The position numbers were made by a program, and so were the translations under genes. Under the pieces are notes generated by a model. It did not search any database, was not told where the DNA came from, and worked only from the letters and a program-made list of their open reading frames with translations. Positions 4,102-28,674 of a DNA stretch of 36,719 bases are shown here, in pieces. The number at the start of each line of letters is the position of its first letter. Positions within the stretch are counted from its first letter, which is position 1. The stretch covers positions 1 to 36,719 of the forward strand of contig CANGEG010000003.1 in NCBI GenBank assembly GCA_947452725.1, written 5' to 3'. Source of the stretch: Comamonadaceae bacterium (GTDB lineage: Bacteria; Pseudomonadota; Gammaproteobacteria; Burkholderiales; Burkholderiaceae_C).

Positions 4102-5084
4102 CAGCGACTGACAGCCAAGGTGTTGAGCGGGGTCAGCGCTTTGCCATGCGTGAGATAAGCAATTAGGTTGTCGGCCGCCAACTGGGCCATGGCCTTGCGA
4201 GTTTTGAAAGTGGCACTAGCAATGTGGGGCGTCAGCACCACATTGGGCACGGTGAGCAAGGCAGGATTCAACGCGGGCTCGCCTTCAAAAACGTCCAGCC
4301 CAGCGCCGGCAATGCGCCGCTCTTTCAGTGCTTGGGCGAGGGCCGCATCGTCCACAATACCGCCGCGCGCAATGTTTACCAAGGTGGCGGTAGGCTTCAT
4401 CAAGGCCAGCTCGGCTGCGCCGATGGTGTGATGCGACTCGGCGCTATAGGGCACGACCAACATCACATGGTCTGCGGTTTGCAGCAGCTCTTGTTTGGAC
4501 ACATAACGCGCACCGCATTGCGCCTCCAGCTCCGGGCTCAAATGTGAGCGGTTGTTATAGAGCACCTGCATGCCAAAGCCGTGAGCGGCGCGCCGCGCAA
4601 TGCCTTGACCAATGCGGCCCATGCCAATGATGCCCAACGTGGAGCCATGGACTTCGGCGCCTGCAAACATGTCATAGCGCCAGTTCTTCCACAAGCCGGC
4701 GCGCACATAGTGCTCGCTCTCGGTGATGCGCCGGGCCGTGGCCATGAGCAGGGCAAAGCCAAAGTCGGCGGTGGTTTCAGTCAACACGTCCGGCGTGTTG
4801 GTAGCCTGCACCCCAGCGGCGGTCATGGCCGCAATGTCAAAATTGTTGTAGCCCACGGCCATATTGGCCACCACTTTCAAGTCGGGGCAAGCCGCCAGCA
4901 AGGCCGAGTCAATGCGCTCGGTGCCTGTGGTTATAGCGCCCGCTTGACCCTGCAACTTGGCAGCTAATTCGGCCGGCGAAAATAAGGCATCGGCTTGGTT
5001 GTCGATCACCACAAAATGTGAACGCAGGTTGTCCAAGACTTCATCAAAAACAGGGCGGCCAACAAAGACGGAGGGTTTCATCAC
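4101..5084 (-). CDS. D-isomer-specific 2-hydroxyacid dehydrogenase
   Basis: A 327-residue NAD(P)-dependent enzyme that interconverts 2-oxoacids and D-2-hydroxyacids. The closest known roles are glyoxylate/hydroxypyruvate reductase (GhrB/GyaR-like). The coenzyme domain contains GIIGMGRIGQGIARR (GxGxxG). The catalytic Arg lies in NIARGGIVDD, the Glu in FEGEPA and the His in LTPHIASAT. The N-terminus begins MKPSVFVGRPVFDEVL. Substrate preference is not resolvable, so I give no symbol. It lies 18 bases after the antiporter gene and overlaps rmuC by one base. Confidence 0.93.
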   Translation of the reverse strand: MMKPSVFVGRPVFDEVLDNLRSHFVVIDNQADALFSPAELAAKLQGQAGAITTGTERIDSALLAACPDLKVVANMAVGYNNFDIAAMTAAGVQATNTPDVLTETTADFGFALLMATARRITESEHYVRAGLWKNWRYDMFAGAEVHGSTLGIIGMGRIGQGIARRAAHGFGMQVLYNNRSHLSPELEAQCGARYVSKQELLQTADHVMLVVPYSAESHHTIGAAELALMKPTATLVNIARGGIVDDAALAQALKERRIAGAGLDVFEGEPALNPALLTVPNVVLTPHIASATFKTRKAMAQLAADNLIAYLTHGKALTPLNTLAVSR

Positions 5085-14879: not shown

Positions 14880-15298
14880 ACGGAGATCTGACTGGGGAGT
14901 CAAAAGTTGGAATATATTTAGTTCGATATCCTTTTGCGACAGGAATCCCAAAAATGAACCTTGCCAGCCGCATGATCGTCAAGGACTCTGCCTGCAACCT
15001 GCAGTCGCTCAAGCGCTATCTGAAAACTCACTTTGCGAAAAGCTTTTGGCACGAAGTCAAACTAAATATCAAACGGCGCATGCGTGAAAGTGGTCAGAAC
15101 CTTGAAAGCGGCACCCACCCGTCCGATCCCCAAACACTAGGCTTGGGCCATTTAAAACCACGCATGATCCTTCAACCCCGCGAGATTTTTGGTTTTGCCG
15201 TTCAGCAAGTACTGACGCGCATGCTCCGCCAGAACAGGCGAAATTTTCTCAATTACTGCAAGCAAAGGGTTCTGGGAGCGCAAGGCTGCAGAAATCAC
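14880..15298 (+). other. Unexplained open stretch upstream of ggt, in frame with it
   Basis: This 419-base stretch has no recognisable gene of its own. From ATG 14954 it is open for 115 codons in frame with ggt, starting MNLASRMIVKDS and rich in Arg/Lys (KLNIKRRMRESGQ). AGGA at 14941-14944 is well spaced from that ATG, and TATATT at 14913-14918 could be a -10. It lacks signal-peptide character and resembles no family I know. It may be a leader ORF, the remnant of another gene, or an untranslated leader that happens to be open. Confidence 0.5.
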
Positions 15299-17185
15299 AT
15301 GAGATACCCCTGGAGCCTGTCCTCACATTTTTTACTCAGCGCGGGCCTGAGCATCGGCCTGAGCATTGGCCTGAGCGCCTGCGTCAGCAAGCCGTCTGAA
15401 TCTGCATCTGCATCTGCTCAGCGCATTACTCAGGCCCTCTCACACAACTCTACCCAAGTCGAACAACCTGAAGCCGCCACTGGTCTGAGCGAGAAACCCG
15501 GCTGGGCTTATTCGCACCAAGCCGTGGCTGCTGCGAATCCCTTGGCCGCGGCAGCGGGATTGCAGATACTGCAGGCCGGCGGGTCGGCGCTGGATGCGGC
15601 AATTGCAGTGCAACTGGTGCTGGGGCTGGTTGAGCCTCAGTCCAGCGGCATTGGTGGCGGGGCTTTATTGCTATATTTTGATGGGCACAGAGTGTCGGCT
15701 TACGACGGGCGCGAAACCGCCCCGGCCGGCGCAGGACCAGATTTGTTTCTAGCTGTCAAAGGCAGCCCCTTGCCCTTGGAAGACGCCGTGCTCAGTGGCC
15801 GATCCGTGGGAGTGCCGGGGGCTGTGCGCATGCTCGAAGCCGCGCACCGGCTGAATGGGACTTTGCCCTGGGCGCGATTGTTTGAGCCTGCCGTGCAAAT
15901 GGCTGAGCAAGGTTTTGCCGTCAGCCCGCGCCTACACGCGTTGTTGCAGGCCGACCAGCACCTGAGAAGAGATCCCGTGGCTTTGCGCTTTTTTTACGGC
16001 GCACAAGGCCAAGCTTGGCCCGTGGGCCACCTTTTGCGCAATCTGGAATACGCCCATGTGCTGCGCCTCATCGCCGCGCAAGGCAGCCGCGCCCTGTACG
16101 AAGGAGCGGTGGCGCAGGCCATTGTGCAGCGCACGCAAGCGCCGCCATTGGCGGGCAGCTTGAACCTGCATGACTTAAGCGGATACCAGGCCCGCGAGCG
16201 AAACGCCCTGTGCTTTGAGCACAGCGCCCGCATTAACAATCAGACACGCTCTTACCGCATCTGCGGATTTCCGCCGCCTTCATCGGGCACGATTGCGATT
16301 GGGCACATTTTGAAGTTGATGGCCAACACCACTGCGCAAGGCCCAGAGTTCATTGGCGGTTTACCCTCACCCGACTTTGTGCATCGCTACAGCGAGGCTT
16401 CGCGCCTGGCCTTTGCAGACCGGGCGCAGTATGTGGCCGACCCAGACTTTGTTTCACCGCCTGCTGGCAGGTGGGGTAGCTTGCTGGACAGCGGTTACCT
16501 GCAAGAACGCAGTCAACTCATCAGCGCGCAGGCTATGACGGAGGCTCCGGCCGGCCAGCCCCTGGGCGCCGTCACCCGCTGGAGCCCCATGCCCAATCAA
16601 GCCGAATTTGGCACCAGCCATATCAGCGTGGTCGATGCGCAGGGGCGCGCCGTGGCCATGACAACCACCATTGAGGCGGGGTTTGGCTCGCGACGTATGG
16701 TCTCAACCGATCACGCGCGGGCGGGTGGTTTCTTGCTGAATAACCAGCTCACCGACTTCAGCTTCATCCCAGCCGATGCACAAGGAAGACCCGTGGCCAA
16801 TCGGGTCGAGCCCGGCAAGCGTCCGCGCTCGTCCATGTCGCCCACGCTGGTGTTTGATAGCTTGACAGGCGAACTGTTGCTGAGCGGCGGCAGCCCGGGG
16901 GGGGCGGTCATCATTCCTTACACCACCAAACTGCTGTACGGCACCTTGAATTGGGGCTTGAATGTGCAACAGGCCATTAACCTGCCCAACTTCGGCGCGC
17001 TCTATGGGCCCGTGTTGTTGGAGCGCCAACGCTTTCCTCAAAGCACCGTGCAGGCTCTAAAGGTGCGCGGCCACGAGGTCATTGAAACTGACATGACCAG
17101 CGGCTTGCAAGCGATTGAGAAAACACGATCGGGTTGGTTTGGGGGGGCCGACCCTCGCCGTGAAGGGCAGGTGCTGGGGGATTAA
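15299..17185 (+). CDS. ggt: Gamma-glutamyltransferase, lipoprotein form
   Basis: GGT cleaves or transfers the gamma-glutamyl group of glutathione and related peptides outside the cytoplasm. From ATG 15299 it is a 628-residue precursor with a signal peptide and lipobox LSAC, so it is likely membrane-anchored. A Ser/Ala linker follows, then the large subunit (SGIGGGALLLYFDG) and the autocatalytic cleavage site before Thr439 in GTSHISVVD. The second Thr of the usual TTH motif is Ser. GGSPGG shapes the active site. The ORF track starts at 14954. I prefer 15299 because only that start puts the signal at the N-terminus. Its stop overlaps the converging ABC gene by four bases. Confidence 0.92.
   Translation: MRYPWSLSSHFLLSAGLSIGLSIGLSACVSKPSESASASAQRITQALSHNSTQVEQPEAATGLSEKPGWAYSHQAVAAANPLAAAAGLQILQAGGSALDAAIAVQLVLGLVEPQSSGIGGGALLLYFDGHRVSAYDGRETAPAGAGPDLFLAVKGSPLPLEDAVLSGRSVGVPGAVRMLEAAHRLNGTLPWARLFEPAVQMAEQGFAVSPRLHALLQADQHLRRDPVALRFFYGAQGQAWPVGHLLRNLEYAHVLRLIAAQGSRALYEGAVAQAIVQRTQAPPLAGSLNLHDLSGYQARERNALCFEHSARINNQTRSYRICGFPPPSSGTIAIGHILKLMANTTAQGPEFIGGLPSPDFVHRYSEASRLAFADRAQYVADPDFVSPPAGRWGSLLDSGYLQERSQLISAQAMTEAPAGQPLGAVTRWSPMPNQAEFGTSHISVVDAQGRAVAMTTTIEAGFGSRRMVSTDHARAGGFLLNNQLTDFSFIPADAQGRPVANRVEPGKRPRSSMSPTLVFDSLTGELLLSGGSPGGAVIIPYTTKLLYGTLNWGLNVQQAINLPNFGALYGPVLLERQRFPQSTVQALKVRGHEVIETDMTSGLQAIEKTRSGWFGGADPRREGQVLGD
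15344..15379 (+). repeat. Three 12-bp tandem repeats in the ggt signal peptide
   Basis: GGCCTGAGCATC, GGCCTGAGCATT and GGCCTGAGCGCC lie head to tail and encode the repeating LSIG of the hydrophobic core just before the lipobox Cys. Copy-number change would alter signal-peptide length in whole codons. Confidence 0.8.
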
Positions 17186-18675
17186 GCCTGTCGGTCGCGG
17201 TGGGAAATTTCCACGACCACCGCCCGGTTGGCCAACTCACTGATCCAGCGCTCTGCTTGCGCGCGGTTGCTGGCATCCAAATTCGCATCCCATTCGTCGA
17301 GCAAATACACGGCACAATGGGTGCGCTGCACGATTTCTTGAAGTGACTGCAATTGACGCTCACCCGAGGAAAAACCTGGCGCCGAGCTGGGCTCTGGGCA
17401 TTCGCCTTGCAGGCCTGCTTCAGCCTGGACTTCATCGGCTTGCGCCTCAATACCCCGCCTAGAAAATTCAAACACTAACCGATCACTGGTTGGCCAGTAA
17501 AAGGCCCTTGAGCCCAAGACCTGCTTGAGCGCTACCAACAGGGTCGATTTGCCGGCGCCGTTGGGTCCGCGCACTGTCACTCGTGCTCTGTGCCAAACGG
17601 TCAATTGGGCAGCCAAATCGGGGGCTGACTGAAAAGTCAAAGCCTGTTCATCTTTGCGTACATCCAAGAGCGCAGGCACGATGCGGGACTGAAAATCCAC
17701 ATCCGAAATTGGCCGCATGGCGCTACAGGCCCCGCCCATGCGGGTCCAGATGGCGAGCAAATCGTTCCAACCTGCAGCCAAGCTGTGCACGTCGGAGGAC
17801 AACTCGATTTGCCTGGGAAGCGTCGCGGCCAAGGCGATCCATAAAGCCGTGGCTTGGGTTCCCTGCGCCACCATGAAAGCCAAATAGCCAAACACCATAC
17901 TTAAGGCAATCACACCGCCCAAAGCGGCCAAGCCTTCTCGCGCCACAATACCGCGAATCGTGGCTTGCAGGGCCCCGCGCAGGCGCTGCTTAAAACCGTC
18001 GTGCCACAGGCGAAAGTTGTAGCGGTTGCCGCTGAAGACGTTGTCCCAGGCAAAGTAAGTGTGCGCGTGCATACGGTTGGTGCTGCTTTGCTGATTCAAG
18101 TAGGCCTGCGCCACCGGTTTGCGCAACTGCCATTGCAGCAGCATCAACACGGCAAACACAGCGGCGTAAACCCAGGGCAGACCGGCGTCCACCGCCACAC
18201 CCAGCACGGCGGCATTAAACACCAAGCCAAAGAACAGCTTAAGGTCAGCCTCCAGCTCATAGATGAACTCAAAAATCAGGTGAAAACTCTCATTGGTCAA
18301 AAAAGGCTCAACCGCTTCACGTTGAGCCTTGTCGTTCAACAAGGCAGTTTGCGCCCGGTTGTCTCGGGTGAACTGCAGCATGTAACGCCCGAAAGCGCCA
18401 AACCCGGCTTGCTCAGCAAACACCCAACTTACCGCCCCCACGCCGTAAGCGGCCGATTGCGCCAGCGCAATCCAAATAAAGTCGGATACCACAAACGCCG
18501 CGCGCGCCAAATCGTGACCAGCTTGAATGATCAAGGCAGTCGTAGTGGCCGACAAAGCCGCCTCAAAAACCAGCAACGCCAACATGCCACCAAAAGGTAA
18601 ACACAGCAACAAACGAACAAAAGCCATGGGCGTGAGCGGCGCCTCTCGATCTTTTAAAAAGTACTCATTTACCAT
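17182..18675 (-). CDS. Compact ABC transporter, fused membrane and ATPase domains
   Basis: A 497-residue half-transporter, smaller than usual exporters (570-600). About five or six hydrophobic segments occupy residues 15-290. A short ATPase domain (about 345-497) has Walker A RGPNGAGKST (369-378) and a signature-like FSSGERQLQ. Walker B is AVYLLDEWDANLDAS, and an H-loop ISHRD ends the protein. The segment from Walker A to the signature is short and I see no clear Q-loop. I cannot place it in a known subfamily. Export is inferred from the fused layout. ATG 18675 has GGAAG 7 bases upstream; the track's TTG 18681 is less likely. It is divergent from the small Lys-rich ORF and overlaps ggt tail to tail. 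Confidence 0.8.
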   Translation of the reverse strand: MVNEYFLKDREAPLTPMAFVRLLLCLPFGGMLALLVFEAALSATTTALIIQAGHDLARAAFVVSDFIWIALAQSAAYGVGAVSWVFAEQAGFGAFGRYMLQFTRDNRAQTALLNDKAQREAVEPFLTNESFHLIFEFIYELEADLKLFFGLVFNAAVLGVAVDAGLPWVYAAVFAVLMLLQWQLRKPVAQAYLNQQSSTNRMHAHTYFAWDNVFSGNRYNFRLWHDGFKQRLRGALQATIRGIVAREGLAALGGVIALSMVFGYLAFMVAQGTQATALWIALAATLPRQIELSSDVHSLAAGWNDLLAIWTRMGGACSAMRPISDVDFQSRIVPALLDVRKDEQALTFQSAPDLAAQLTVWHRARVTVRGPNGAGKSTLLVALKQVLGSRAFYWPTSDRLVFEFSRRGIEAQADEVQAEAGLQGECPEPSSAPGFSSGERQLQSLQEIVQRTHCAVYLLDEWDANLDASNRAQAERWISELANRAVVVEISHRDRQA

Positions 18676-18696
18676 TTTCAAGCTTCCAATTATTAC

Positions 18697-18726
18697 AAAT
18701 TATTTAATTTATAGTAAACTTGTCAA
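18697..18726 (-). promoter_or_regulatory. Promoter of the compact ABC transporter
   Basis: On the minus strand there is a perfect -35 TTGACA (18726-18721) and, 18 bases on, TAATTT (18702-18697), in a very AT-rich stretch unlike the surrounding GC-rich DNA. The transcript would start about 15 bases before the ABC start codon. Confidence 0.65.
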
Positions 18727-18756
18727 CGCCATTAGCTTGCAACACGTTGAGTTGAT

Positions 18757-18798
18757 ACCTGTGCGTTCATTGAAACATGTTTCAATGAACGCACAGGT
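18757..18798. repeat. 42-bp perfect palindrome
   Basis: Two 21-base arms (ACCTGTGCGTTCATTGAAAC... and its exact complement) meet with no spacer. The centre TTGAAACATGTTTCAA looks like a TetR-family operator; for example, PsrA sites have GAAAC-N2-4-GTTTC. It lies between the ABC promoter and the small Lys-rich ORF. As RNA it would form a very stable hairpin in the leader of that ORF. Confidence 0.95.
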
Positions 18799-18860
18799 CT
18801 AAATCGGCTTGGCAGCAGGTCGGTTTAGCACCTTAACCAGAACACTTCAGGAGATTCTTC

Positions 18861-18896
18861 ATGAAAAAGAAAAGCAAAAAACCAACAAAGAAGTAA
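18861..18896 (+). CDS. 11-residue lysine-rich peptide ORF
   Basis: The ORF reads MKKKSKKPTKK, with seven Lys in eleven residues. It is too short for the ORF track. AGGAGA at 18849-18854 lies 6 bases before the ATG, one of the best ribosome binding sites in the window. The stop codon sits in the loop of a small hairpin, and a strong terminator begins 13 bases later, so this looks like a complete short transcription unit. Translation is not proven. It could be a secreted cationic peptide, a regulatory leader peptide, or part of a small RNA. It is divergent from the ABC transporter, which suggests but does not show a link. Confidence 0.55.
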   Translation: MKKKSKKPTKK

Positions 18897-18905
18897 TTTC
18901 TTTGT
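18885..18905 (+). other. Hairpin enclosing the small ORF stop codon
   Basis: ACAAAGAA-GTAAT-TTCTTTGT is a perfect 8-bp stem whose 5-base loop contains most of the TAA stop. It sits between the ORF and the terminator. Confidence 0.7.
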
Positions 18906-18909
18906 AGCG

Positions 18910-18951
18910 AAAACAACCCCGCCAAGCTGCGCTTGAGCGGGGTTGTTTTTT
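18910..18951. terminator. Strong, probably bidirectional terminator
   Basis: AAAACAACCCCGC pairs with GCGGGGTTGTTTT, and the loop extends the stem with CAAGC/GCTTG (one bulged A), followed by further T on the plus strand. On the minus strand it also ends in TTGTTTT, so it can end both the small plus-strand unit and recD transcription arriving from the right. Confidence 0.92.
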
Positions 18952-19015
18952 GGAGCAGCGCTCTTGCTCAATTCAGCCGCTTGGGCATTGCCCCTCAAAC
19001 ATAAAAACACGCCCA

Positions 19016-21112
19016 TCATCCGGCCTGGCTCAAAGCCCCCAGACCACTGGCGCGTCGGACCTGTTGTGCCATGGCTTCGCCTAGCAAGCCAACTCGGGGC
19101 TCGACCAGCGACAGGTATTCCTTGGCGCGGGTGATACCGGTGTAGACCAACTCGCGGGTCAAAATATCACCGCCTACATCGGGCAAGACCACCACGGTGT
19201 GGGCAAACTCTGAGCCCTGGCTTTTGTGGATGGTCATGGCAAACGCCGTTTCCACATGGGCAAGTCGACTGACGCTGACAGAGCGCAACTGTTCACCATC
19301 GAGAAAATAGGCCCGCAGCGCTCTTCCCCCTTCGTGACCAGGCAGCACCACCCCCACATCGCCATTGAAAACGCCCTGTGCCTTGTCGTTACGAGTCACC
19401 ATGACGGGTCGCCCGACAAACCACTCACCTTCAGGTTGCAAAAGGCCTTGGCTGGCGAGCGCACGCTGCACCTGGTGATTGATGACCCGATCGCCCCAGT
19501 CCCCTTCATGCACAGCGCACAAGATACGAAAACGATCAAACGCTTTGAGCACACGCTTGACCCAGTCAGTGTGGGCCGTTTCGGGCTCAAGCGGCTGCGC
19601 CCTGTGAAGCCTCAAAGGCCAAGGTCCGAGCTGGATCTCACGCAGGTAGTCGGCGTAACTGGCCGGGGCCAGAGGGCGTCCGTGCAAGGCCAGTTGCACC
19701 AGCGCATCGGGGTGCAATGGAGTCGGCACCAAATACACCTTGCCTGGGTGGGCTACAGCACTAGGCAAAACGGTGTGTGCCTGCCGCGTGCCGCGGGCCA
19801 ATAGATCGTAGGCGCCCAAAGGCACCTCTAGCGTGAACAAATCCGAAGGGGCTTCGGCCCGAACCAGGCCCGCGTTCACGGCTTTAGCCAGCGCGCCGAT
19901 GTCCGAGCCAAAGCGGTGACTGTGGCGCAGCATCACGGTTTGCTGTTCGAGCGCGCTGGTGAAAGTTGTCGATGCGAGCAAATGTTGCCCGCAAGTAGCC
20001 ATCACATAAGCGCAGGTGGCAGGGCTGTAACGGGCCTGTTGGGCGTGGGCGCAAAGGTCTCCCAGCACCGAGCCTGCTTCCACCGATGCGAGTTGATCTT
20101 TGTCGCCCAGCAAGATCAGTTTGGCGTGAGGGGGCAAGGCTTGCAGCAAAGCGGCCATCATTTCCAGGTGCACCATCGAGGTCTCATCAACGATCAACAC
20201 GTCCAGGTCCAACTGATGCTGTGCATTGTGGTTGAACTGTCGACTGCCCACGCGCATACCTAGCAGCGCATGCACAGTGCTGGCCTGGCCGATGCGCTCG
20301 GTCAGCGCCTGCAAGTCCACCGCTGCCCCCAGGCTGCTTTGCAGGCTGACCAGCGACTGGTCAATGGACTGGCGCAAACGCGCCGCTGCCTTGCCGGTGG
20401 GCGCAGCCAGTGCCACGCGCAGCTGCGCCGGGTTCTGGCTGGTGGCCAGCAAGAGTGCCAGCAAACGGGCGGCGGTGTAGGTTTTACCAGTACCGGGGCC
20501 ACCGGTGATGACAGTCAGCCCACTGCGCAGAGCCAGCGCGCAGGCGATCTTTTGCCACTGGGGCTCATCGCCCGATGAAGTGCCCGCCTCGCTGCCAGAT
20601 GGTGCCGCAAACATCCGGTCCAGCCAGTCTTTGGCGGCCTCCGTGTCCACCCTTTGGTGCGCTGCGACGCGCTGCCCCACCGCGTGCGCCACTTGTTGCT
20701 CATAGACCCAATAGCGGCGCAGGTAAAGCAACGGGGCCTTGGCCGTGCCGTCCAGCACCAGCGGCTGGCCTGTATCGGGGTGACCTGGCGAGACGCAGCG
20801 CACCACCGGGCTGCGCTTGAGTGCATTCACCCAATTGTGCGGCGCAGTAGGCAAGCTGGCCCACAGGCTGTTCAGCTCACTCTGCGCTTTTTCCGGCCAG
20901 CCCAACACCGCTTGGGGGTTTTGCACCAGCTCAATCAACGGCAAGCACACATGACCTCGCCCCTCCATATGCGCCAGCAAAGCGCTGGCCACCAGAGTGG
21001 CGGGCTCGGCTTGGGGGTCATGGTCCAAAACAAAGCCGGCCAGGGCACTGTCTAGGCGGCGTAACCAGCCTTGCTCAGACCACTGACGAAGGGTTTCAAG
21101 GGTGGAATTCAT
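19016..21112 (-). CDS. recD: Exodeoxyribonuclease V subunit alpha
   Basis: RecD is the fast 5'-3' helicase of the RecBCD complex that processes double-strand breaks. This 698-residue protein has a helicase-poor N-terminal domain and Walker A TGGPGTGKTYT (about 220). VLIVDETSMVHLEM is motif II and GDKDQLASVEAG motif III. TIHKSQGSEF and YTGITRAKEYL are motifs V and VI near the C-terminus, as in superfamily 1B. It is the last gene of recC-recB-recD, 30 bases after recB, and is followed by a terminator about 65 bases on. Confidence 0.96.
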   Translation of the reverse strand: MNSTLETLRQWSEQGWLRRLDSALAGFVLDHDPQAEPATLVASALLAHMEGRGHVCLPLIELVQNPQAVLGWPEKAQSELNSLWASLPTAPHNWVNALKRSPVVRCVSPGHPDTGQPLVLDGTAKAPLLYLRRYWVYEQQVAHAVGQRVAAHQRVDTEAAKDWLDRMFAAPSGSEAGTSSGDEPQWQKIACALALRSGLTVITGGPGTGKTYTAARLLALLLATSQNPAQLRVALAAPTGKAAARLRQSIDQSLVSLQSSLGAAVDLQALTERIGQASTVHALLGMRVGSRQFNHNAQHQLDLDVLIVDETSMVHLEMMAALLQALPPHAKLILLGDKDQLASVEAGSVLGDLCAHAQQARYSPATCAYVMATCGQHLLASTTFTSALEQQTVMLRHSHRFGSDIGALAKAVNAGLVRAEAPSDLFTLEVPLGAYDLLARGTRQAHTVLPSAVAHPGKVYLVPTPLHPDALVQLALHGRPLAPASYADYLREIQLGPWPLRLHRAQPLEPETAHTDWVKRVLKAFDRFRILCAVHEGDWGDRVINHQVQRALASQGLLQPEGEWFVGRPVMVTRNDKAQGVFNGDVGVVLPGHEGGRALRAYFLDGEQLRSVSVSRLAHVETAFAMTIHKSQGSEFAHTVVVLPDVGGDILTRELVYTGITRAKEYLSLVEPRVGLLGEAMAQQVRRASGLGALSQAG

Positions 21113-24100: not shown

Positions 24101-24913
24101 AAATCTGCGGCCATCCCAGCCATGTGCGTTGGGCGGATCTTGCGACAGCACAAAGCTGCGCATTTGCGCCACCCGCTCGCGCCAGGGGTGGCGCAACTCC
24201 TTGAGTTGCTCGCGCAATTCACTCTGAGCGCGCTGCAGCACTTGTGCCAGTGTCGCAGCGACGTCTACCGCACCTGTTGGCAACTTTCCCAGCAGCGCTT
24301 TCACATCCGTTAACAAAGGATCCACCCCTGACCAAATGTCCAACACCTCGTTCAGCACAGGTGCGGCCAGGCCATAGCACTGCTTGCGCCAATAGTCTTG
24401 TACTGCCTGCGTGAGAAGCGCTTGTTCGTCGGCCACCAGCTCTTCTTCAAACAGGCTGCCGCTGTCAAAGGCATGTTCACGCAGCATCCGCTGGCACCAG
24501 GCGTCTATAGTGTGAACACTGGCTTCGTCCATGCATTCGGCGGCCATGGCCAGACGCCAGGCGGCCAGCTGGCGTTCGCCCTGAGCCGGGTAATCCACCA
24601 AAAGGCCACGCAGATAGTCGTCTTCGGCCATGGGTTCGGCCTCGCCCCTGAAGCAGCGGGCGGCTTCAAGTAAGCGGGCACGGATGCGGTCCGACAACTC
24701 ACGCGTTGCGGCCCGGGTGAATGTCATCACCAAAATTTCCGACGGCATCAACGGACGCGTAAAACGCGACTCGTTGCGGCCATGCCCCAGCACCAACCGC
24801 AAATACAGTGCGGCAATGGTCCAGGTCTTGCCGGTGCCGGCACTGGCTTCAATCAGGCTAGACCCCCACAAAGGAAAGCACTCTGCGTGCAGAGGTTGCG
24901 ACACTTCATGCAT
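21143..24913 (-). CDS. recB: Exodeoxyribonuclease V subunit beta
   Basis: RecB is the 3'-5' helicase and the only nuclease of RecBCD, and it loads RecA. This 1256-residue protein has Walker A EASAGTGKTWTI near the N-terminus and motif II VALIDEFQDTSPIQYSIF. VTIHASKGLQYPVV is motif V. The C-terminal nuclease domain carries MGFMDLVFEHEGRYWVLDYKS, with the catalytic Asp and DYK, so the nuclease looks intact. Length is close to E. coli RecB (1180). The start overlaps recC by 8 bases, consistent with coupled synthesis. Confidence 0.97.
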   Translation of the reverse strand: MHEVSQPLHAECFPLWGSSLIEASAGTGKTWTIAALYLRLVLGHGRNESRFTRPLMPSEILVMTFTRAATRELSDRIRARLLEAARCFRGEAEPMAEDDYLRGLLVDYPAQGERQLAAWRLAMAAECMDEASVHTIDAWCQRMLREHAFDSGSLFEEELVADEQALLTQAVQDYWRKQCYGLAAPVLNEVLDIWSGVDPLLTDVKALLGKLPTGAVDVAATLAQVLQRAQSELREQLKELRHPWRERVAQMRSFVLSQDPPNAHGWDGRRFSIQNITGWLDTLQRWAEASDAAVVPDLAAGWLRLRPAGLDEARKVDAGPVHMSPAETEAFEAFAGLQASLHKLPTPSAAVRLHAAASVAQHLRQLKRQKGQFGFSDMLERLDAALKGPNGDRLRERIAAQYPVALIDEFQDTSPIQYSIFDQIYRVADNAPERALLLIGDPKQSIYGFRGADIYSYLQARLATQGRHYALSVNYRSTQALVKAVNHSFLQAEMQLPGGAFLFKAESAGQPGNPLPFVEVKAQGRKEKWLNAHGELPAITLVHDLKLQSLGQAQKWFSDRCAEQIAGWLIDPANGFTRDGKEFQRLRPQDIAVLVRTGKEAAAVRRALQKRNVASVYLSDKDSVYQSDEARDLLHWLRAVATPQDAGLVRAALALGSVGLSLAELALLATDDEVFDEQIQILRELRQTWLVQGVLAMLRQSMHRFKLAARWLANEGGERSLTNYLHLAELLQNASADLEGEQALIRWLMNQIAENADQTTEQVVRLESDADLVKIVTIHASKGLQYPVVCLPFSTSFRPAKKGLSSAVQLPMADGVRELVLDMDDEALAKLEQERMREDLRLLYVALTRACHALWLGFAAVKVGNGKACKTQQSAIGYLVGGANERIAADWLERLQALADGCKGIALVPAPAQTGLTRLQARSQLPDLQAAPTYVADFDRNWSIASYSRLTRDLKKEAQVKEAQFNDAQVTLPPSALSPLRVMRPADDETPSVQDVDAAFQVEALTPTTAGAPGPIWHSFKRGPITGNWLHKQLDWLAGEGFALKDNVALAARLQARCERDGHNEAAPALVGWLSDVVHAKLPGLKVTLAQLPTVRSEMEFWLPARQIETAAVDAVCCEFLLPGVARPRLQTSTLHGMLMGFMDLVFEHEGRYWVLDYKSNSLGPDDSAYSADSLARAMAEHRYDVQAAIYVLALHRLLKSRLGMAYDPERQLGGAVCLFLRGMHGPSGGTCTLQPSASCLAALDAMLDPSPEILA

Positions 24914-27900
24914 ATGAAACCGCTTTCACGCATTGGGCAGACCAGGCCAGCAAGGGACCATAAACCAGGCGGGCCAGAGCGGTCACATCCATGCCGTTTG
25001 GAGCCTTGGCGCTGCAAAGGGCTTCAAAGTCGGGAAAGACCCGGGCCAGGCACATCTCGCGCACTTCGGCCAGTTGTTCGCTAATCGCACCACCACCACC
25101 ACCACCACCACCACCACCTTCGTAGGCGAGTTCGGCCTTGGCATCGGCTTGGCTGTCCTCTTCGCTTTGAGCACCAGCGGCCAGCGCCAATGCAGTCTTG
25201 AGCGGTAAAGGTAAAGGGGCATTTTGGCCTTGCAGCCAAACTTCGCACAAAATGTTCAGGCCTTGCAAGGCTTGCTCGGGCGGCATGGGTTGAATATGCA
25301 GTTCGCCATCCTGCCCGACTACACGTCCCTGCAACACCTGCCCAACCGATGCGGCCAGCATGGATTGCAACCAAGCGCGCAAGAGTTTGTCAGGGCGGGC
25401 AACATAGACTTTACCGTTTTTGGCGGTGATTTTACTGGCGTCCAATATCACCCACGCGCGGTCACCGTCGCTATTTTGGCAAATACCGTCGAGCCAGTCG
25501 CGCAGCACCAACGTGTGATCTTGGCACCGGTGCTCATAGCTGACCGCAACGCGCTCGCTGGTCAGCGGAAACGCATGGCCCAGCCCAGCCCAGGCCTGCG
25601 CCATGGCGCTCAGCGTGCCTTGTAACTCGGCTTTTTTAAGTTGGCCCAGACCCTGCATTGGCAAACTGCCCGCACGATCCAAGGCCTCCAGCCGGGCCGT
25701 AATGCCTGCCTCCAGGCCTTGACATTGGGTTGGCGCGGGCCAGTGTTGGATCTGTGACTGTATGAGTTGGTAGTTGGCCAGCCCGTCAAAGCCAAAAGCT
25801 TCTGTGTCACCAGGCTCCTCTTCAGGGCTCCAAAAGCTCACACCAAAACGTTCCTTGAAAAAGGCTTTGACCGGGTTGCGGAAAAAACGCACCAGCCTAT
25901 CTTGGTCCAAGCGTTCCTGGCCCAAACGCTCGGGCTTAACCAGGCAAAGGGTGGTGGGCACCAAGGTGCTGGAATTGTCAGTACGGCAACCCTGCTCGGC
26001 CATGTTTGTACTCTCGTACAGGCTGCGCCACTCGCGGGCATAAGTTTGCAGCGATGAGCCCGATTCAAAATAGCGACGACTGAAAGGCTGCAAAGGATGC
26101 GAGGTTGTGCGGTCTATGACGGCTTGTTCGCCCCAGGCTGAGGCGATGTAATCGCGCAGCTGCGAGACCAGCACCGAGGGTGGCTGCGCGCTGTTATCGC
26201 GCACGCTGTGGCCAGTCCAGCTGACATACAGCACGCGGCGGGCAGACAGCAGCGCTTCTAGCATGAGTTGTCGGTCATCGTGCTGGCGCGATCGGTCGCC
26301 AGGGCGAAACATTCCGCGCTGGCCCATCAGGTCAAAGTCGCTGCGCTGAGTGCGACGCGGATAGTCGCCGTCATTCATACCCAGCAGGCAGACTACCTCA
26401 AACGGAATGGCCCGCATCGGCATCAGCGTGCAAAAAGTCACGCCACCGGCCCGAAAACGCTGCGCCAAGCTAGGCACCTGTAAGGCGTCAAGCCAGCCTT
26501 GGCGCAGAGCCGCCAAACCCACCGCCTGCGCAAAACCGGCTTGCTCACAGGCCCGCAGCCAATAGTCCAAACCATCGCTCAGTGCGCTCAAGGCCAGAGT
26601 GTCTATCTCGTCCACGGCTTTAAACAAAACTCCCAGCAACCACTGCGCGTGTTCGCGCCAAGCCCCAGGCGTGGCCTCGCTTTGGGTGCGCTGCCACCAG
26701 TCGGCCAGAGTTTGTAGCAGGTGCGCCAGGCTGCCAGCCAGTTCGGCATCCAAGCCGCCGACTTCGGCATAGGGCTCAGTACCCTGCCAGCCTGTGGCGC
26801 CGGACAGCTCGGCCATTGAGCCCGAGGCGTAACCTAGCAGCATGCGCTGCAAACCAAACCAGGCACTGTTTTGGTCGCCGCAAGCGGCCAGGTCCAACTG
26901 GGCCCGCTGCTGTTCGTGCAAGCCCCAGCGAATGCCAGAGCCGGTCATCCATTGCATGAGCAGGGGCAATTTTTCAGCGTCAATGCCAAAGCGCTGGGCC
27001 AAGGCGGGCACTTCTAATAAATCCACCAACTCGCTCAAGCCGCAGCGGTGCAACGGCAAACCGAGTAACCACTCCACGGCCAAAATAATCGGGCTGCTGG
27101 ACTTAGCGCTCAGGTCAGCAATGTCAAACGGAATGAACCGCTTGTCGTGACGCGAGTATTGACCAAACACAGCGCGGATAGCTGGGGCCATGCTCTGCAC
27201 ATCGGGCACCATGACAACGACGTCTCGGGGATTGAGTGGCAGTTTTTGATCCGTGGTTATGGACGATGGCGCCAATAGGGCCAGCAACTGGTCGTGCAGC
27301 ACTTCAAGCTCACGCACGGGGCTGTGCGCCAGGTGGAACACCACTGAGCGGTCTTCGGCGGCCAAAGGTGCATCGTCATGCCGCACGCTCAGCGGCTCCA
27401 AGTCGCGGATGCGATGCTGCATACGGGTGAGCATGGGTGTGTGAGCAGTTTCAGGTGCCTCGCCAAAAAGGTCAATCTTGAGCAAGGGAAAAGCCTGCGC
27501 CGTGGCCACGGCATCGTCAAAAGCATCGAGCTGGCGTACAAAGTCCCTCCCCTGCCGACCCCAGGCAGCAAGCAGCGGGTGGGCAAGCATGTGCATGTCT
27601 TCCAACGCTGGCGGTGTGTTCAGGGCCTCTCGCATTGGATGGCGGCGGCGCGCAATCTTGAATAGTTCACGCCCTTCCATGATGTCGCCCCAGTAAAAAC
27701 GGCAAGGGTTCGGCACCGCCACAATCACCTGGCTGTGAGGGGCCAGCGCGGCCATCATCTCTAGCATGGCCCCGGGAATGTGGCTCATACCAAATACCAC
27801 GACGCGCCGCGGCAGCGGTCCTGCAAAATTTTCGCCACTGTGTAAGCGCGCGACCACCTGGCGATGCAGGTCGGGTCGAGTGACGCCGCGCTGTGCGGGC

Positions 27901-28535
27901 GTGAGCGAGTGCAGCATCGCCCGCCACAGTGCTGGTTGCCAGCGCTGGTCTTCGGCCAAAGCTTGCGCAGGGCCGCTAGGTTGGCTCAACTCGTCGCGCC
28001 CGGCAGCCCAGTCTTGCAGCCAATCGGCGCGGTAATTTTGGTACTGGTCAAACAAGTCGGCCAACTGGCTGGCCAGCTGCAACATGCGGGTGTCGTCGAA
28101 CGCCGTGTCAGCGTCATGACCAGGAGACAGGTAGCGGGCCATAGGCGCAAATTCGGGTTGCGCCAGCAAACCTGGCAAAACTTGCATCAGCCGCCAGGTC
28201 ATGGGTAATTTGTCCAGCGGAGACTCGCGTGGAACTCCTTGTGCGCCCAGCACCAGACGGTAAGCGCGCCACATAAAGCGCCCCGGCAACTCCACCCGCA
28301 CCGCCGAACATACGCCAGACTGCTGCGCCAACGCCATCTTGAACCACTCGGCCATGCCACTGCTTTGTACCAAGATCACTTCTTCTTCGAGGGGCCGCAG
28401 GGGGTGGCTGCCCAGCCAGGCGATCACCGTGTGCGCCAGATCCTCGGATCGGTTGCCGTGCAAAACAATGAATCCGGTACGGATGACATTCTCAGCTGGA
28501 TTGACTTTGGAGTTTTCTATAGAGTCGGCTGGCAT
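24906..28535 (-). CDS. recC: Exodeoxyribonuclease V subunit gamma
   Basis: RecC is the inactive-helicase scaffold of RecBCD that splits the duplex and reads Chi. It starts FIVLHGNRSEDLA, followed by LVQSSGMAEWFKM and LPGRFMWRAYR, the usual N-terminal signature. Then come PFEVVCLLGMNDGDYPR and a degenerate nuclease-like C-terminal part. The track starts at TTG 28565. I choose ATG 28535 (MPADSIEN), which has AGGA 7 bases upstream, giving 1209 residues. Near the C-terminus (about residue 1140) lies a run of ten Gly encoded by a triplet repeat, which I do not know from RecC. recB follows with an 8-base overlap. Confidence 0.95.
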   Translation of the reverse strand: MPADSIENSKVNPAENVIRTGFIVLHGNRSEDLAHTVIAWLGSHPLRPLEEEVILVQSSGMAEWFKMALAQQSGVCSAVRVELPGRFMWRAYRLVLGAQGVPRESPLDKLPMTWRLMQVLPGLLAQPEFAPMARYLSPGHDADTAFDDTRMLQLASQLADLFDQYQNYRADWLQDWAAGRDELSQPSGPAQALAEDQRWQPALWRAMLHSLTPAQRGVTRPDLHRQVVARLHSGENFAGPLPRRVVVFGMSHIPGAMLEMMAALAPHSQVIVAVPNPCRFYWGDIMEGRELFKIARRRHPMREALNTPPALEDMHMLAHPLLAAWGRQGRDFVRQLDAFDDAVATAQAFPLLKIDLFGEAPETAHTPMLTRMQHRIRDLEPLSVRHDDAPLAAEDRSVVFHLAHSPVRELEVLHDQLLALLAPSSITTDQKLPLNPRDVVVMVPDVQSMAPAIRAVFGQYSRHDKRFIPFDIADLSAKSSSPIILAVEWLLGLPLHRCGLSELVDLLEVPALAQRFGIDAEKLPLLMQWMTGSGIRWGLHEQQRAQLDLAACGDQNSAWFGLQRMLLGYASGSMAELSGATGWQGTEPYAEVGGLDAELAGSLAHLLQTLADWWQRTQSEATPGAWREHAQWLLGVLFKAVDEIDTLALSALSDGLDYWLRACEQAGFAQAVGLAALRQGWLDALQVPSLAQRFRAGGVTFCTLMPMRAIPFEVVCLLGMNDGDYPRRTQRSDFDLMGQRGMFRPGDRSRQHDDRQLMLEALLSARRVLYVSWTGHSVRDNSAQPPSVLVSQLRDYIASAWGEQAVIDRTTSHPLQPFSRRYFESGSSLQTYAREWRSLYESTNMAEQGCRTDNSSTLVPTTLCLVKPERLGQERLDQDRLVRFFRNPVKAFFKERFGVSFWSPEEEPGDTEAFGFDGLANYQLIQSQIQHWPAPTQCQGLEAGITARLEALDRAGSLPMQGLGQLKKAELQGTLSAMAQAWAGLGHAFPLTSERVAVSYEHRCQDHTLVLRDWLDGICQNSDGDRAWVILDASKITAKNGKVYVARPDKLLRAWLQSMLAASVGQVLQGRVVGQDGELHIQPMPPEQALQGLNILCEVWLQGQNAPLPLPLKTALALAAGAQSEEDSQADAKAELAYEGGGGGGGGGGAISEQLAEVREMCLARVFPDFEALCSAKAPNGMDVTALARLVYGPLLAWSAQCVKAVSYA
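25089..25118 (-). repeat. (GGT)10 microsatellite encoding poly-Gly in recC
   Basis: Ten exact ACC units on the plus strand read GGT on the minus strand and encode ten consecutive Gly between AELAYE and AISEQL. Slippage would change length in whole codons, so it would tune a linker and not switch the gene off. Confidence 0.95.
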
Positions 28536-28647
28536 CAAAGCATCCTGGGCGGTTGGCACATGCAAATAGGCGATTACTAAAGCGATGACGATTGTTCACT
28601 GGAAGGTCGACTTTAGCGGGCCAGCCACGCAAAAAATTGCGGGGCAA

Positions 28648-28674
28648 CAAAAAAGCGCCGCTAGCGGCGCTTTT
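28648..28674 (-). terminator. Terminator of acs
   Basis: AAAAGCGCCG-CTAG-CGGCGCTTTT is a perfect 10-bp inverted repeat. On the minus strand it ends in seven T, 22 bases after the acs stop. It separates acs from recC, which runs in the same direction. Confidence 0.93.

Follow-up and report, generated by a model that had tools for sequence, protein, structure and literature searches.

A perfect 42-bp palindrome at the front of a predicted lysine-rich micropeptide mRNA beside an ABC transporter gene

Stem-loops in the 5' leader, of the ompA type, stabilise bacterial mRNAs. Amino-acid leader peptides with attenuators are encoded by a very short ORF that is rich in one amino acid and followed by an intrinsic terminator. 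In general, micro-ORFs of 8-22 codons are rarely annotated. The ABC transporter McjD exports microcin J25 and confers immunity to it. Template switching is reported to create and maintain RNA hairpins (PMC8794818).

The locus described here lies in a window of 36,719 nucleotides (the whole stretch of DNA that was analysed). As in ompA-type leaders, a stable predicted hairpin fronts a short leader whose Shine-Dalgarno region, further on, is unpaired; here, however, a perfect palindrome with zero spacer would form the stem, and the predicted mRNA codes for no more than 11 residues. As in attenuator leader peptides, a tiny ORF rich in one residue is followed by an intrinsic terminator, and in Rhodocyclales the unit precedes an ABC gene on the same strand. 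In Comamonadaceae, however, including the window, the unit and the ABC gene are arranged divergently, which precludes attenuation of the latter by the former. As at the McjD locus, a small-peptide gene adjoins a transporter gene, and McjD is the best structural match of the ABC protein of the window. Unlike in that system, the identity over the structural alignment is ~16%, no lasso-peptide maturation genes are seen beside the ABC gene of the window, and the peptides are of 8-22 residues and poly-cationic. No antibacterial activity is known for these peptides. As with hairpins formed by template switching (PMC8794818), the perfect stem could have been made or repaired in one event.

The palindrome and its mini-unit

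A preliminary description, made from the letters alone, had claimed a 42-bp perfect palindrome without spacer whose arms match exactly. This is confirmed at 18757-18798. The features of the locus are as follows.

18757-18798, plus strand: palindrome H1, 42 nt, 21-bp arms, spacer 0 (sequence and RNA fold)
18799-18828, plus strand: second hairpin H2, CTAAATCGGCTTG-GCAG-CAGGTCGGTTTAG, 13-bp stem (RNA fold)
18849-18853, plus strand: Shine-Dalgarno AGGAG (sequence); similar sites precede many related micro-ORFs
18861-18896, plus strand: micro-ORF of 11 codons, lysine-rich MKKKSKKPTKK, with counterparts at related ABC loci
18910-18951, plus strand: intrinsic terminator of the micro-gene, 13-bp stem and T6 tail
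18699-18726, minus strand: predicted sigma-70 promoter of the ABC gene, TTGACA (18726-18721)-16-AATAAT
17182-18681, minus strand: ABC transporter of 499 aa, TM domain and short nucleotide-binding domain (Pfam ABC_tran/SMC_N)
17189-19035, no strand: cassette of ABC gene, leader region, micro-gene and terminator, absent from a related genome

The perfect part of the palindrome is exactly 18757-18798 (ACCTGTGCGTTCATTGAAACA|TGTTTCAATGAACGCACAGGT), and a repeat search returns wider arms (18752-18777 and 18778-18803), also with spacer 0. By our own arithmetic, the chance of 21 matching pairs at a given point is ~4^-21. The runner-up among zero-spacer perfect palindromes in 704,902 bases (window and related loci) is 24 bp. 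The palindrome is far beyond chance, as the preliminary description had judged. Its predicted RNA fold is a 19-bp stem closed by a CAUG loop. The preliminary description had also asked whether further copies exist, and whether the core or all 42 bp are kept in orthologous intergenic regions. There is a single copy in its own genome and no similar DNA in 60 related genomes, and neither the core nor the full palindrome is kept in sequence in any relative.

On the plus strand, the palindrome is followed by H2, the Shine-Dalgarno sequence, the 11-codon ORF and the terminator, and the mini-mRNA predicted from palindrome to terminator is ~190 nt. The earlier placement of the palindrome between divergent units is correct, though incomplete; the plus-strand unit consists of an ORF of 11 codons that has a Shine-Dalgarno sequence and a terminator to itself. 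RNA folding gives z = -8.1 for 18740-18960 and z = -7.6 for the leader (18749-18848). Promoter prediction placed no promoter on the plus strand. A -10-like GATACC (18754-18759) extends into the left arm, part of which would be untranscribed if this were a real -10 element. The palindrome lies upstream of the predicted ABC promoter, ~30 bp away, and is thus outside the ABC transcript if that promoter is used. A TGTCAAC block, the complement of the -35 element, is nearly invariant in relatives, as few other blocks are. The terminator is nearly bidirectional and may also serve recD, whose end, oncoming from the opposite side, lies past it. Relatives likewise carry GC-rich hairpins with T-runs 3' of the micro-ORF.

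The same architecture is found upstream of the ABC homologue in Comamonadaceae relatives. When the 100 nt before the Shine-Dalgarno sequence were folded and compared with shuffles, the leaders of L050, L010, L014 and L006 gave z values of -7.3, -6.9, -5.4 and -5.3, respectively. The excess of structure is weaker in L007, L011, L012, L013, L015 and L018, and there is little or none in the Comamonadaceae loci L005, L008, L016, L017, L019, L023 and L025, nor in Rhodocyclales leaders except L043 (z -3.0). Hairpins at the places of H1 and H2 in relatives are unrelated in sequence to those of the window. The equivalence of H1 between window and relatives rests on position, since the H1 sequences differ completely. 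In the sister locus L023, an imperfect hairpin, CCAATAGGGTCGACTTATTGG, occupies the place of the palindrome.

Five leaders (L005, L011, L012, L014 and L015) can be aligned with one another, and the window cannot be aligned with them by sequence. In this group, scored for a two-hairpin structure that we specified, 98% of the H1/H2 cells pair. Seven pairs have changes in both partners, and six of these belong to H2; in the H2-equivalent hairpin, 6 of the 9 pairs carry such changes. None of 500 shuffles reaches the observed value, and slid versions of the structure pair at 35-56%. An Rfam search returned nothing at the gathering score; its sub-threshold matches are chance-like and consist mostly of miRNA-type hairpins, which any long stem would be expected to give.

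The micro-ORF and its transporter partner

Related micro-ORFs encode 8-22 aa, the shortest being MAKKKKKK. In Comamonadaceae (for example, MNNATAKPKKSKKPMKKAPK and MAKKRKSKKPAKKASQ), they are divergent from the ABC gene; in Rhodocyclales (for example, MATKKKTKGKKPAPK and, in Dechloromonas, MAKKKKKK), they are co-directional with it, with a terminator between. Ten MNNAT-type micro-ORFs differ by 162 synonymous and 41 nonsynonymous single-base codon changes. The synonymous fraction is 0.80 against 0.20 expected, counted over ten relatives, excluding the ORF of the window, in pairs that are non-independent through shared ancestry. These codon differences indicate that the micro-ORF of the relatives is under purifying selection at the codon level. 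As separate observations, an inverted repeat, TTGACGTTTACGTTAACGTCAA, which we take to resemble a LiuR-type operator, lies upstream of the MAKKKKKK/MAKRKKKK unit in L053, L054, L058 and L059, and a perfect 22-bp palindrome of similar sequence occurs at L010:8936.

Linkage was scored in 80 fetched ABC homologues as a lysine-rich ORF of 8-40 codons within 600 bp upstream to 150 bp inside the ABC start. A lysine-rich micro-ORF is found at 39 of the 44 betaproteobacterial ABC loci: 34 satisfy this definition, L074 falls just under it, and in L006, L010, L017 and L050 the micro-ORF is displaced, ~1.8-2.9 kb from the ABC gene. Besides these four, 353 kb of flanking DNA contain no other lysine-rich micro-ORF. 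The remaining neighbours vary from locus to locus. Among 301 family genomes, 12 have a strong ABC match and 4 have the MNNAT-type pattern, all of them ABC-positive; as these four also supplied the pattern, the informative part is that it occurs in 0 ABC-negative genomes. In the ABC protein tree, the bearers of a micro-ORF form two groups, with homologues without one between them. Tips with a micro-ORF make up 19/19 of the Rhodocyclales-type group and 18/20 of the Comamonadaceae-type group, the exceptions (L009 and L042) being on short contigs. The micro-gene and the ABC gene form a conserved pair.

Alphaproteobacterial ABC homologues have no micro-ORF nearby in lysine-rich scans, nor in a broader scan for a Shine-Dalgarno sequence plus hairpin, which was run without a positive control. 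The ABC protein can thus exist without the micropeptide. Likewise, G551 (L154), a genome outside the family, has the ABC gene and no detectable micro-ORF. An acidic residue at ABC position 138 was considered as a mark of homologues with a micro-ORF and dropped; it is also present in L029, L033, L040, L047, L069 and L154, which have no micro-ORF, and is absent in L065/L066, which have one.

The AlphaFold2 model of the ABC protein has a mean pLDDT of 87.6. Its top Foldseek match is McjD (8px9_B, E 8e-10), followed by MsbA, IrtAB and TmrAB. The consensus motifs, assigned by eye, are GxNGxGKS, SSGER, LLDEWDANLD and SH. With an exporter fold, Walker A, signature, Walker B and H-loop, the defining set for this class, the modelled protein looks like a type IV ABC exporter. 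The family ranges over Comamonadaceae, Rhodocyclales and Alphaproteobacteria, with distant members in Chlamydiae, Sporomusa and Moraxella. The models searched in Pfam, NCBIfam and PADLOC include none that is specific for it; the best PADLOC match, mads_3 (E 8.7e-15), is confined to the ATPase part, and a plasmid search with the protein gave distant ATP-binding matches only.

In the related genome G021 (L149), which otherwise has the same gene order, GGT joins recD over ~46 bp (the aligned parts stop at 4211 and start again at 4257) where the window holds ~1.85 kb. The ABC gene is missing from 59 other genomes of the genus. The empty site means that the cassette was either gained here or lost there. 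Given the patchy distribution, gain fits better than loss. A gamma-glutamyltransferase-like gene adjoins the ABC gene both in the window (14954-17185) and in L008 (3933-5939), in different relative orientation.

With gain, the ABC gene and the micro-gene would have entered the genome as one cassette. Their products probably work together. The simplest guess is that the cationic micropeptide is transported by the putative type IV exporter or else controls it; the gene linkage suggests that the peptide may be cargo or ligand of this protein. It is possible, though on balance doubtful, that the pair represents an undescribed two-gene system, in which an encoded poly-lysine peptide of as few as 8 residues (MAKKKKKK), with its own structured or terminator-bounded mini-mRNA, serves a McjD-like exporter as dedicated cargo or ligand. 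A partial literature search found nothing relevant on a lysine-rich micropeptide with an ABC transporter. Were the peptide exported or bound by the transporter, few encoded partners of ABC exporters would be as short. One micro-ORF class accompanies the same transporter gene in each of two distinct betaproteobacterial clades, in differing orientations and contexts and with codon-level selection, and the pair offers this otherwise unnamed transporter family a function that can be tested. The micro-gene and its transporter partner matter more than the palindrome, which on its own would be an extreme example of a widespread feature, the leader hairpin.

Readings of the palindrome

Any explanation starts from what computation establishes: the palindrome, the mini-unit, the conserved partnership, the selection in relatives, the leader hairpins in some relatives and the empty site. 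The palindrome is probably the first of two leader hairpins (H1 and H2) of the predicted micropeptide mRNA, in an unusually perfect form. The preliminary description had offered three options, and its leader hairpin fits best, as the palindrome stands at the front of a small unit, several relatives keep hairpins there, and the alignable group has compensatory changes. Against it stand the lack of a placed plus-strand promoter, the overlap of the -10-like GATACC with the left arm, the concentration of double changes in H2, the leaders with little or no excess structure and the alphaproteobacterial ABC homologues without a micro-ORF. Perfect symmetry that includes the central four bases is, moreover, unnecessary for an RNA hairpin.

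Alternatively, the palindrome could be a DNA operator, at which a dimeric repressor (TetR/PsrA-like, or at two nested sites) controls the divergent ABC gene and micro-gene. The perfect dyad, its symmetric centre, its place in a divergent promoter region, the GAAAC-AT-GTTTC core and the predicted ABC promoter ~30 bp away would all suit such a site. However, its own genome holds no second core 20-mer within 3 mismatches, and the core 16-mer is not in excess (9 genome matches with ≤3 mismatches, itself included, versus 6 for a reversed control). Moreover, the cassette has no regulator gene, and no relative keeps the core. The arms also exceed the usual operator length, as the preliminary description had noted. 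An operator, single or nested, is therefore unlikely. We regard as still less likely that the palindrome is a neutral by-product, an intergenic quasipalindrome perfected by template switching and without function of its own. Quasipalindrome correction is a known mutation route, and relatives such as L023 have imperfect hairpins at this place; but the palindrome coincides exactly with a place in the leader at which hairpins persist in several relatives, and the L005/L011/L014 group maintains leader pairing by compensatory change.

The source assembly is fragmented (276 contigs, 81% complete), as would suit an assembly fold-back. However, a fold-back would mirror longer flanking sequence, and here both flanks are unique and run into features expected for the gene family (the promoter block on the left; H2, the Shine-Dalgarno sequence, the micro-ORF and the terminator on the right), which makes such an artefact highly improbable. 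The third option of the preliminary description, a miniature mobile element or repeat unit, has the inverted-repeat form in its favour but is scarcely credible for a sequence found once in its genome and in 0 of 60 related genomes.

On the leader-hairpin reading, transcription would run through the palindrome. H1 would most likely shield the 5' end of the mini-mRNA from decay and prevent base-pairing between the leader and the Shine-Dalgarno region. The ribosome site would then stay open, allowing steady production from the tiny A-rich ORF. The perfection of the stem would most likely stem from template switching during replication, in which one arm of an imperfect hairpin served as the template for rewriting the other.

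Two further features were observed elsewhere in the window. A trinucleotide run at ~25089-25120 encodes ~10 glycines in the minus-strand ORF 24906-28565, which is probably recC and adjoins recB and recD. A 24-bp perfect palindrome, AAAAGCGCCGCTAGCGGCGCTTTT, at 28651-28674 is probably a bidirectional terminator.
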